Shown here: one piece after another, positions 13,894 to 16,178 of the stretch
Numbering within the stretch: position 1 is the stretch's first letter
How the letters are laid out: the number at the start of each line of letters is the position of its first letter
Assembly: GCA_905480605.1 (NCBI GenBank)
Contig: CAJQRD010000074.1
Coordinates: 1-41,855, forward strand
Direction: 5' to 3'
From: an uncultured Saprospiraceae bacterium
Lineage (GTDB): Bacteria > Bacteroidota > Bacteroidia > Chitinophagales > Saprospiraceae
DNA: 41,855 nucleotides
Position numbers and translations under genes: made by a program
The notes under the pieces: generated by a model
Told to the model about the DNA's origin: nothing
Database searches by the model: none
Seen by the model: only the letters and a program-made list of their open reading frames with translations

Positions 13894-13920
13894 ATTTATA
13901 TTTTGTAGTTTTTAAACAAA

Positions 13921-13950
13921 AAAAGACCACTCATTCGAGTGGTCTTTTTT
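13921..13950. terminator. Bidirectional terminator of GNAT-like gene and tRNA-like RNA
   Basis: A 12-bp stem (AAAAGACCACTC 13921-13932 with 13937-13948) with a 4-nt loop and T runs on both strands. It ends the GNAT-like gene (+), and its minus-strand reading begins 3 nt after the encoded CCA of the tRNA-like RNA. Confidence 0.85.
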
Positions 13951-13952
13951 AT

Positions 13953-14099
13953 TGGCTGTGAGAGAAGGAGTCGAACCTTCACGAGGAATTTAGCCATAGA
14001 ACAAATATCAAGTTTGTGGTCAATCCTTATTCTACGTTTATCATTTTATCCTCACCCTCGAGACAAGAGGGCATGGCTGCCTGGTTTCATCACCTCACA
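13953..14099 (-). ncRNA. tRNA-like RNA with 74-nt variable region (GUC anticodon loop, encoded CCA)
   Basis: On the minus strand the RNA has a 7-bp acceptor stem (TGTGAGG with TCTCACA, one G-U) and a class-II style D arm (ATG / CAT, loop with GG). The anticodon arm CCCTC-TTGTCTC-GAGGG places GTC at 14064-14062. The T arm is canonical: GAAGG-TTCGACT-CCTTC fits GTTCRANNC. It ends G73-CCA, encoded. Between anticodon and T arms lie 74 nt that can fold as nested stems (GAGGA/TCCTC, CGTAGA/TCTATG, ACAAA/TTTGT), against ~10-24 nt in normal class II tRNAs. G73, GUC and C38 are AspRS identity features, but the loop has U at position 37, which is unusual for a decoding tRNA. It has its own promoter and terminator. 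It is not tmRNA: too short, no tag frame, and an anticodon arm is present. Confidence 0.65.
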
Positions 14100-14127: not shown

Positions 14128-14160
14128 CAAATATAGGATTATTTTCGGATAGGATACAAA
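14128..14160 (-). promoter_or_regulatory. Promoter of the tRNA-like RNA
   Basis: On the minus strand TTTG (14160-14157), a 21-nt spacer and TATATTTG (14135-14128) form an exact -7 TAnnTTTG box with a -33 TTTG. The mature RNA 5' end at 14099 is 28 nt past the -7 box, leaving a short leader for RNase P processing. Confidence 0.7.
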
Positions 14161-14307: not shown

Positions 14308-15327
14308 ATGAATAAAATCTATAATAAATATACGTTTACTGCACTTTTGAACTTGTGTCTCTGTATAATATCATACAGTCAAGAACTACCTATTAAGATA
14401 AATGGCATTTCAATTGTTAGTCCGCCAGATTCGATAATCCAAAATCCATTTGAGGAAATAAAATCGCTTGGCGCAAATTGGACCTGTATCATTCCCTATA
14501 GAGAATGTAAAGCGCCAAATTTTCATATTGCAACAGAGGATGTTTTTAGTTGGTGGGGTTTATCAATTACAGGAATTGAAACAAGTATTCAAATGGCAAA
14601 AAAATCTGGTTTGAAAATTTTGTTGAAACCACAATTATATTTACAAAATTCTTGGCCAGGTGTGATTAATTTTAAGACTGAAAGAGAGTGGAACGAATGG
14701 GAAGTAGAGTACACTCAATTTATTTTGACCTTTTTAGGCCTTGCCATTAAGCACGACGTAGAAATATTTTGCATTGGAACTGAAATAAAGAACAGTATTG
14801 CGGAGCGTCAAGATTACTGGGTTGAGCTAATCGAAAGTATGAGACATATTTACAAAGGGAAAATAGTTTATTCTGCAAATTGGGATGCTTATGAAAATGT
14901 AAAATTTTGGAATAAATTAGATTATATTGGCGTTAGTTCTTATTTCCCATTGTCTGAGGATAAAAATGCAGATGTGCAAATTTTGAAAGAGAGTTGGATG
15001 CAAATAGTAAGAAAATTAAAGCGATTTTCCTACAGAAAAGGAATGAAAGTACTCTTTACAGAATACGGATACCTGTCTGTTGATCACACAGCTTATCGCC
15101 ATTGGGAGCATGAAGACAATATCTACAATTTGGCAATAAATGAATCAGCTCAAGCCAATGCGTTAGATGCGTTTTACAGCACATGGATGAAGGAAAGTAT
15201 TTGGGCAGGTGGGTTTTTATGGAAGTGGTATCCAGATAGAAAAGGACACCAAGGATATTTTGAAAAAGATTATACACCTCAAGGCAAAAAAGCTGAAGAG
15301 GTCATTAAAAAATGGTTTGCTAAATGA
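14308..15327 (+). CDS. Secreted glycoside hydrolase, GH113-like TIM barrel
   Basis: 339 aa with an N-terminal export signal (LLNLCLCIISYSQ). The barrel has features of GH113 (beta-mannanase-type) proteins: GISIVSPPDSI at strand 1, SLGANWTCIIPY, LKILLKPQLYL, then FCIGTEIKNS, whose Glu would be the acid/base. LFTEYGYLS carries the Glu expected as nucleophile, and a C-terminal GGFLWKWYPD strand follows. It probably hydrolyses a mannose- or related hexose-containing glycan in periplasm or outside. Its stop overlaps the panC start by 4 bases (ATGA), so the two are translationally coupled although functionally unrelated. Substrate is not established. Confidence 0.8.
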   Translation: MNKIYNKYTFTALLNLCLCIISYSQELPIKINGISIVSPPDSIIQNPFEEIKSLGANWTCIIPYRECKAPNFHIATEDVFSWWGLSITGIETSIQMAKKSGLKILLKPQLYLQNSWPGVINFKTEREWNEWEVEYTQFILTFLGLAIKHDVEIFCIGTEIKNSIAERQDYWVELIESMRHIYKGKIVYSANWDAYENVKFWNKLDYIGVSSYFPLSEDKNADVQILKESWMQIVRKLKRFSYRKGMKVLFTEYGYLSVDHTAYRHWEHEDNIYNLAINESAQANALDAFYSTWMKESIWAGGFLWKWYPDRKGHQGYFEKDYTPQGKKAEEVIKKWFAK

Positions 15328-16178
15328 AAATTTTAAAAAGTGTTTCAGGAATTCGAAAAGCTTTGGCTGAGGAAATCAAAGCTGGAAAGACGATTGGTTT
15401 TATTCCAACAATGGGAGCTTTGCATATGGGGCACATGTCACTTATTCAAAAGTCAGTAAAGGAAAATGATATTACGGTAACGAGTGTGTTCGTCAATCCA
15501 ACACAGTTTAATCAAAAAGAAGATTTGGATAAGTATCCAAGAAACCTTAAAGCAGATGCTAAACTATTAAAGCAGTTTGGTTGTGATTATATATTTGCTC
15601 CTGGTGTTGCTCAGATTTATCCGAAAAAAATTGACACTACTGTTAAGTTGGATATTGACCACTTGACACAGAGTATGGAAGGGCCAAATCGACCTGGGCA
15701 TTTTGTTGGTGTCGTACAAGTGGTTAAACGATTGTTGGATATATTGGAGCCCAACAAGTTGTATATGGGGCAAAAAGATTTTCAGCAATTTAGTATCATC
15801 GATTATATGCTGAAGAAACTAAAAATGAAGACGAAACTCCGTGTTTGTCCTATCATAAGAGAAGAAGATGGCCTGGCTATGAGTTCTCGAAATGTCAGAT
15901 TGGCTAAAAAACACAGACCATTGTGTACTGTAATATATAAGACACTGATATTTACAAAGGAAAACCTAGGTAAAAAAACCACAAAATATCTTGAGAAAAA
16001 GGCCATGGAAAGATTGGCAGAAAGACCATTCAACCCAGAATATTTTGAAATAGTTGATGGTAAAACGATGGAAAAAATCAAAAATCCTGACAACCATAAG
16101 CTGATTGTGGCTTGTACCGCTGTCTGGGCAGGAAAAGTCAGGTTGATCGATAATATGATTCTTAAAGGAAAAGTGTAG
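15324..16178 (+). CDS. panC: Pantoate--beta-alanine ligase
   Basis: PanC joins pantoate and beta-alanine with ATP to make pantothenate for coenzyme A. At 284 aa it has normal length. The nucleotidyl-transferase motifs are present: IPTMGALHMGHMSL (HIGH-type), FVNPTQF, GQKDFQQF and AMSSRNVRL (KMSKS-like). The start ATG overlaps the GH113-like stop by 4 bases. In many Bacteroidota panC is followed by panD and a YbhN-type gene. Here the YbhN-type gene is present, but panD is reduced to a 41-codon remnant at 16221-16346. The beta-alanine supply must therefore come from elsewhere. Confidence 0.96.
   Translation: MKILKSVSGIRKALAEEIKAGKTIGFIPTMGALHMGHMSLIQKSVKENDITVTSVFVNPTQFNQKEDLDKYPRNLKADAKLLKQFGCDYIFAPGVAQIYPKKIDTTVKLDIDHLTQSMEGPNRPGHFVGVVQVVKRLLDILEPNKLYMGQKDFQQFSIIDYMLKKLKMKTKLRVCPIIREEDGLAMSSRNVRLAKKHRPLCTVIYKTLIFTKENLGKKTTKYLEKKAMERLAERPFNPEYFEIVDGKTMEKIKNPDNHKLIVACTAVWAGKVRLIDNMILKGKV

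Follow-up and report, generated by a model that had tools for sequence, protein, structure and literature searches.

A conserved tRNA-like RNA family of Bacteroidota as a candidate carrier for asparagine synthesis

The RNA gene and its homologues

We analysed DNA of 41,855 nucleotides (nt) from an uncultured Saprospiraceae bacterium (GenBank assembly GCA_905480605.1, contig CAJQRD010000074.1, positions 1 to 41,855; this whole stretch is the window below). Its minus strand encodes an RNA that resembles a transfer RNA (tRNA) and has homologues in other Bacteroidota. A sequence-only reading of the window had described acceptor, D and T arms, an anticodon arm with GUC, a discriminator G73 and 74 nt of variable region between the anticodon and T arms, and we found that the sequence reads as described (Table 1). 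Folded as a single sequence the RNA was unremarkable (z -1.6), so the case for it must rest on conservation.

Table 1. Coordinates of the RNA gene, its parts, its flanking signals and the divergent neighbour in the window.
Feature	Position	Strand	Basis or remark
tRNA-like RNA gene	13953..14099	-	sequence, homologues, covariation
Mature RNA, 5' U1 to G73-C74	14099 to 13956-13955	-	last letters CA unconserved in the family
Acceptor 5' strand TGTGAGG	14093..14099	-	pairs with 13957-13963; U1, G2, U3 almost invariant
Acceptor 3' strand TCTCACA	13957..13963	-	covariation
Discriminator G73 and C74	13955..13956	-	GC in 140/140 full-length copies
D arm (ATG/CAT)	14073..14090	-	near same-genome tRNA-Leu(UAG); lacks U20a
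Anticodon arm CCCTC-TTGTCTC-GAGGG	14055..14071	-	loop UUGUCUC 14060-14066; GUC 14062-14064
Variable region, 74 nt	13981..14054	-	
Variable-region stem V1	14050-14053 with 13983-13986	-	3/4 pairs changed on both sides; then a 4-nt bulge
Variable-region stem V2	14043-14045 with 13987-13989	-	3/3 pairs changed on both sides
Variable-region internal loop GAUAAA/CUAA	14037-14042 and 13990-13993	-	conserved
Variable-region inner stem module	13994-14036	-	
T arm GAAGG-TTCGACT-CCTTC	13964..13980	-	sequence, covariation
Promoter-like site TTTG-N21-TATATTTG, Bacteroidota type	14128..14160	-	read by eye; family enrichment
Terminator-like hairpin GACCACTC-GAAT-GAGTGGTC, 8 bp, then seven T	13918..13944	-	read by eye
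Divergent neighbour, glycoside hydrolase family 113 (GH113) protein	14308..15327	+	Pfam GH113, 1.3e-36

Homologues were found by blastn in 23 of the 60 genomes searched, the window's own included, and several genomes carried two or three copies. We aligned 27 parsed copies (alignment A1) with the inner variable arm trimmed and the copies at L019, L023 and L030, which could not be parsed, left out, and tested on them a cloverleaf with a three-stem variable arm. We found that 18 of the 30 pairs had changed on both sides and that 97.9% of cells were paired. None of 500 shuffled alignments did as well on any measure, and structures slid out of register fell to 45-60% paired. The covariation extends to the acceptor (pairs 4-7), T and variable arms, in the last of which both V1 and V2 have changed pairs. 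The copies therefore share with elongator tRNAs a covarying cloverleaf of 7-bp acceptor, D, anticodon and T arms.

A model built from A1 finds 142 copies in 100 loci, of which two end at contig ends and 140 are full length. This set is not wholly independent of the model, as some contigs (L177, L213 and L221, for example) supplied both, and counts from L160-L239 are biased to the GUCUC loop, the pattern used to find them. Carriers among 80 loci listed, which do not amount to a census, include Chitinophaga, Niabella, Segetibacter, Flavihumibacter, Neolewinella, Lewinella, Phaeodactylibacter, Cyclobacterium, Belliella, Algoriphagus, Marinoscillum and uncultured Bacteroidota, and one more carrier family (f68) belongs to another class of the phylum. 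Across the phylum the model matches at 66 bits or more in at least 41 of 392 genomes (own included, counted by eye), a floor with at most nine candidates scored per genome. Tallies at E of 0.001 or below (286/298 and 390/392) were rejected as presence counts, because we take those hits that have about 55-61 bits and 85 nt to be ordinary tRNA-Leu. In Phaeodactylibacter, Lewinella and G207 we observed tandem arrays of four or five copies 150-320 bp apart (L197:312-1053, L224:6960-7858, L157:6203-7195); by eye some spacers have no promoter-like site, and the copies there may be co-transcribed and processed.

Standard tools did not recognise the RNA. ARAGORN called no tRNA in the window or in 44 loci, and Rfam, searched with the window and with 10 loci, gave no family at gathering score. 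With relaxed thresholds the tRNA model that came closest was the selenocysteine tRNA (tRNA-Sec, RF01852), at 18.5 bits where 47 are required. The family matches no described family among those tested. Like transfer-messenger RNA (tmRNA) it is a tRNA-like RNA with a long insertion; tmRNA, however, contains a reading frame and has no anticodon arm, whereas in this RNA the anticodon arm is complete and conserved, and neither ARAGORN nor Rfam reported tmRNA in the window. Like allo-tRNAs and tRNA-Sec it has a class II body with unusual arms, and one report places GUC anticodons among the 8/4 allo-tRNAs (PMC7609411). Allo-tRNAs have 8/4 or 9/3 acceptor and T arms, while the 27 copies of A1 have 7/5, with a far larger variable region. 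A recurrent UUGACC segment raised the Y RNAs, the partners of Ro60/Rsr; since the Ro60/TROVE domain was found in 1 of 60 genomes, and the window's genome was not that one, we dropped the idea. Searches aimed at it in a collection of open-access papers showed no prior account of a separate non-decoding RNA gene family for asparagine synthesis, and the Bacteroidota family is apparently undescribed.

The promoter and terminator said to bracket the gene can both be read by eye, and TAnnTTTG lies 10-60 nt upstream of 48 of 138 family copies versus 11 of 138 in a control stretch. A consensus scanner returned no terminator for the window RNA and sigma-70 sites only at background (4 found versus 2.6 expected), so both signals rest on direct reading. 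The weight formerly given to an encoded CCA was wrong. G73-C74 is conserved in 140/140 copies and the letters that follow vary. The ordinary tRNA genes found in the window's genome encode C74 in 32/32 cases and the full CCA only in tRNA-Gly(GCC), tRNA-Asp running into a contig end. The family, like these tRNA genes, keeps C74 alone, and so the window's CCA is due to chance. In this genome (L053-L079; 32/32) a single C behind the discriminator can help to mark a 3' end processed as in tRNAs.

Identity bases, anticodon loop and variable arm

The ends and the anticodon loop of the RNA are nearly invariant. U1-A72 is present in 139/140 full-length copies, G2-C71 and U3-A70 in all 140, and U8-G9 in 142/142. 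In the anticodon loop we found GUC in 139/142, C38 in 142/142 and U37 in 139/142, while U33 is kept in only 113/142. Similar values hold for A1 (GUC 27/27, C38 26/27) and for the 31 copies in loci found by model hits (GUC 28/31, C38 31/31, U1-A72 31/31, U33 23/31).

These bases bear on charging by aspartyl-tRNA synthetase (AspRS) and amidation by GatCAB. According to one study, bacterial aspartate identity relies strongly on G73, G34, U35, C36 and C38 and in a minor way on G2-C71, and tRNA-Asp has G1-C72; the same source makes amidation of Asp-tRNA-Asn by GatCAB dependent on U1-A72 and blocked in tRNA-Asp by G1-C72 together with U20a (PMC9976931). The sequence-only reading had named GUC, C38 and G73 as AspRS features, and we found these and G2-C71 conserved over the family. 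The G1-C72 of tRNA-Asp is replaced by U1-A72, and U20a is lacking, the D loops of the 20 commonest types all having GGCAG after the variable part. The RNA therefore combines the AspRS identity set with an amidation pair that tRNA-Asp lacks. Since its anticodon is that of aspartate, a non-discriminating AspRS would not be needed, and since its 1-72 pair is U-A, GatCAB should accept it. Sixteen AspRS sequences from carriers lack the histidine of non-discriminating enzymes; the position was only loosely aligned, and we give the result no weight.

An ordinary tRNA-Asp(GUC) is also present in the window's genome. The one tRNA-Asn found there has G1-C72 and should be rejected by GatCAB. G1-C72 is also present in the tRNA-Asn of a Saprospiraceae locus (L214); the only other tRNA-Asn seen was that of G498, described below. 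For part of the Bacteroidota the RNA is a better candidate substrate of GatCAB than tRNA-Asn, but both may be used side by side.

We asked whether such an RNA could decode. Its full cloverleaf with T and D arms, G73, GUC and a tRNA-type 3' end would suit a divergent tRNA working on the ribosome, either a class II tRNA-Asp or a suppressor-like one. A canonical elongator tRNA is expected to have U33, a purine at 37 and a variable region of about 4-24 nt. Here U33 is lost in 29/142 copies, position 37 is U almost throughout, and the variable region spans 38-131 nt (median 81.5 in the 140 full-length copies). All three traits, U37, the often missing U33 and the large arm, speak against decoding; the sequence-only reading had made this point for U37. 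An ordinary tRNA-Asp is moreover at hand, and an amidated RNA would put asparagine at aspartate codons. We regard a decoding role as very unlikely. G73 with a long arm might instead attract seryl-tRNA synthetase, or the RNA might be an uncharged structural RNA stabilised by its tRNA fold; either would leave GUC, C38, U1-A72 and the associations with GatB and AsnC described below unexplained, and we give these readings next to no credence.

The variable arm follows a common plan: a 4-bp stem, mostly a 4-nt bulge, a 3-bp stem (all covarying) and a conserved GAYAAA/CUAA internal loop. The innermost part, a hairpin or a larger module, varies from copy to copy. GGUUGACCAC or a near form occurs in many of the long variable regions; sought by eye, no consistent pairing of GGUUGACCAC with other parts of the RNA was found. 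Compared with ten tRNAs of its own genome, the window's D arm has its best score against tRNA-Leu(UAG) and a poor one against tRNA-Asp; in G016 the D arm of the RNA is one position off its own genome's tRNA-Leu(UAG). From this likeness the body of the RNA looks derived from tRNA-Leu.

Association with GatB, asparagine synthetases and AsnC

We compared 80 genomes hand-picked from the model's listings, of which 40 had a strong hit (E of 1e-13 or below) and 40 had none. This choice preceded the searches for AsnA, AsnB, GatB, glutaminyl-tRNA synthetase (GlnRS) and asparaginyl-tRNA synthetase (AsnRS), but followed sight of the AsnC-type neighbour described below. A pattern search, which found all five known-carrier controls, moved six of the 40 genomes without a hit to the carriers, giving 46 genomes with the RNA and 34 without. 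The presence of GatCAB was judged from GatB alone.

AsnRS was above cut-off in 80/80 genomes and GlnRS in 70/80. We found GatB in 46/46 carriers versus 5/34 genomes without the RNA. Those five are exactly the genomes without the RNA that have no GlnRS above cut-off and so need GatCAB for tRNA-Gln. In genomes with both AsnRS and GlnRS, GatCAB is without a textbook job. Among the 70 genomes with GlnRS, GatB was nevertheless present in 41/41 carriers and in 0/29 others (Fisher, 2.5e-20), and within the window's taxonomic family the counts were 21/21 and 0/18. The window's genome has the RNA, GatB, AsnC, AsnRS and GlnRS; its congener G002 has neither the RNA nor GatB. On an AsnRS tree, within the GlnRS-containing set, GatB follows the RNA in 6/6 independent pairs on starred branches (p 0.03). 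The tree was made by a quick method; 18 of its 77 inner branches are starred, and one of its rows (G479) is very long.

The asparagine synthetases gave a more mixed result. AsnA was found in 2/46 carriers versus 6/34 genomes without the RNA (Fisher 0.066), a difference that is not significant, and we rejected the idea that the RNA replaces AsnA alone. A TIGR01536 protein was above cut-off in 33/46 carriers and 30/34 others. A short AsnB form (a match to profile positions 1 to about 385, in frames of 474-578 amino acids), presumably the length of E. coli AsnB, was seen in 15/34 genomes without the RNA versus 0/46 carriers, sorted by eye among the matches listed, which leave weaker ones outside. 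Neither AsnA nor TIGR01536 was above cut-off in 13 carriers versus two genomes without the RNA (G070, G286). The window's genome is one of the 13: it lacks AsnA, and its best AsnB match stays below the cut-off (171.6 versus 267.1 bits).

The most frequent neighbour of the RNA is an AsnC-type gene, found in 67 loci; the next family reaches 22. It stands head-to-head with the RNA in 63/100 loci (62/93 of those with at least 700 nt upstream), with a gap of 120-293 bp (median 153), and this layout was seen in Chitinophagaceae, families of the Cytophagales and f68. Compared with solved structures, one such protein matched best 2CG4, 'regulatory protein AsnC', which we take to be the E. coli protein, at 117 bits, with Lrp at 41. 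Setting the orthologue cut at 211 bits, a value fixed after we had seen the gap down to the next score of 178, we found AsnC in 46/46 carriers versus 9/34 others (Fisher 1.4e-13). In the window's genome the gene lies away from the RNA (G000:C35:75968-76435), and it is likewise unlinked in G019, G029, G207 and G395. In three genomes without the RNA (G190, contig C18; G265, C70; G318, C10) an Lrp/AsnC gene (143-155 bits) lies head-to-head with short-form asnB, with 80-85 bp between the matched stretches, so the RNA and an asparagine synthetase seem to fill the same place. At L146, L153, L154 and L306 the AsnC gene, whether or not the RNA is there too, adjoins SUF-like genes, presumably the iron-sulfur cluster genes SufB, SufC and SufS; in Chitinophagaceae its surroundings are different.

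This neighbour is pertinent to two further readings. The RNA could be a riboregulator whose charging state (aspartate, asparagine or none) is read by the variable arm or by AsnC, GatCAB being only the sensor's modifying enzyme. A divergent AsnC-type gene, AsnC kept in all carriers even when unlinked, and a variable inner module, in many copies with GGUUGACCAC, would agree with this. However, GatB is absent from 29/29 GlnRS-containing genomes without the RNA, and 13/46 carriers have no asparagine synthetase above cut-off; on these counts GatCAB would have no metabolic reason to be kept, which makes a riboregulator quite unlikely. Alternatively, the charged and amidated RNA could donate asparagine (or aspartate) off the ribosome, with a lipid, the cell wall or a peptide as possible acceptors, so that free asparagine is not the product. 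Other aminoacyl-tRNAs are known to act outside the ribosome, and the conserved GAYAAA/CUAA loop could dock a transferase. No transferase gene is found among the recurrent neighbours, among which the AsnC-type family is far ahead, and control by AsnC points to the supply of asparagine itself; we consider a donor role improbable.

In the window the place of the AsnC-type gene is held by the GH113 gene, which is probably outside the RNA system. It is followed by panC (pantoate-beta-alanine ligase, window 15324-16178). Within the window's taxonomic family the neighbours of the RNA vary, the commonest being the family of this GH113 gene (7/21; six other genomes), and we drew no functional link from them.

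A proposed RNA-dependent route to asparagine

The sequence-only reading had allowed for an aminoacylatable RNA with a non-ribosomal job. The conserved aspartate bases, the added U1-A72 and the way the RNA tracks GatB and AsnC lend this support; the link to GatCAB and asparagine was absent from that reading and is new here. We propose that the RNA is probably a dedicated, non-decoding tRNA-like carrier for tRNA-dependent conversion of aspartate to asparagine off the ribosome. It would mature in the way of a tRNA, its 3' end being filled up to CCA. AspRS would load it with aspartate through G73, GUC, C38 and G2-C71, and GatCAB, which rejects the G1-C72 and U20a of tRNA-Asp, would accept U1-A72 and amidate the product to Asn-RNA. 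Asn-RNA would be excluded from the ribosome by the altered anticodon loop together with the large variable arm; such barriers make sense because asparagine on a GUC anticodon would enter at aspartate codons and corrupt proteins. Asparagine would then be freed by spontaneous or enzymatic deacylation, the least supported step of the cycle, and would be available to AsnRS and to all other needs of the cell. AsnC would adjust the RNA gene to the supply of asparagine, much as it does with asnA in E. coli.

Some known systems come close to this. In E. coli, asnC and asnA lie head-to-head, a layout like that of AsnC and the RNA: in both an AsnC-type regulator sits beside a means of making asparagine, but the divergent gene is an enzyme in E. 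coli and an RNA in Bacteroidota. The staphylococcal non-proteinogenic tRNA-Gly for the cell wall is likewise a dedicated aminoacyl carrier outside translation; unlike the RNA proposed here it has a near-normal tRNA shape and serves peptide cross-bridges, not amino acid synthesis. E. coli AsnC activates asnA, which encodes asparagine synthetase A, and asparagine abolishes the activation (PMC4482635). tRNA-dependent asparagine synthesis is itself already known, and the new part would be a separate non-decoding RNA gene family for it. In Deinococcus, Thermus and Bdellovibrio, as described in a 2014 survey, aspartate is also placed on a U1-A72 RNA and amidated by GatCAB in the presence of AsnRS and GlnRS (PMC4206432). 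In those organisms the carrier is tRNA-Asn itself, which also decodes, and a non-discriminating AspRS is required, whereas the Bacteroidota RNA is a separate gene with an aspartate anticodon, for which a discriminating AspRS would do, and it appears non-decoding.

Several observations weigh against the carrier proposal. The 80 genomes were hand-picked, and on the AsnRS tree of all of them GatB follows the RNA in 5/6 pairs (p 0.06) and AsnC in only 2.5/6 (p 0.25). Nine genomes without the RNA retain AsnC, and in the window's taxonomic family and in Cyclobacteriaceae loci (7/8 of the latter) the RNA is mostly not beside AsnC. AsnA is present in two carriers and an asparagine synthetase-like TIGR01536 protein in 33/46. 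One carrier, G498, has a U1-A72 tRNA-Asn that GatCAB could use. In the 2014 survey, tRNA-Asn has U1-A72 in all 67 genera tabulated with AsnRS, GlnRS and GatCAB, and is proposed as the GatCAB substrate there (PMC4206432). Finally, three copies carry the Glu-type anticodons CUC or UUC (L147:6071-6186, L148:6031-6146, L153:6050-6160) while keeping G73, C38 and U1-A72; of the genomes concerned, G625 lacks AsnA and shows nothing above cut-off for AsnB, and G479 has AsnA and lacks GlnRS. A switch of the carried amino acid is possible in such copies, and in G479 the change could be a shift toward glutamine.

We lean slightly toward a wider version of the carrier proposal, in which many Bacteroidota would obtain asparagine mainly through an AsnC-controlled, tRNA-derived RNA cofactor that, with a discriminating AspRS, GatCAB and a release step, replaces AsnA and AsnB. 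The variable arm would be a functional module that excludes the ribosome and EF-Tu or docks GatCAB or a dedicated deacylase, and a few lineages would have changed to the Glu type, possibly toward glutamine.

The work adds an RNA family missed by the tools tried, and offers a clear-cut case in which to study what keeps Asp-RNA and Asn-RNA off the ribosome. If the proposal is true, it would explain why GatB is kept in 41 examined genomes that have both AsnRS and GlnRS, and how asparagine could be supplied in those without a recognised asparagine synthetase. An RNA unread by the ribosome would then serve primary metabolism as a carrier that is used again and again, a present-day case of an RNA 'coenzyme handle' for amino acids.
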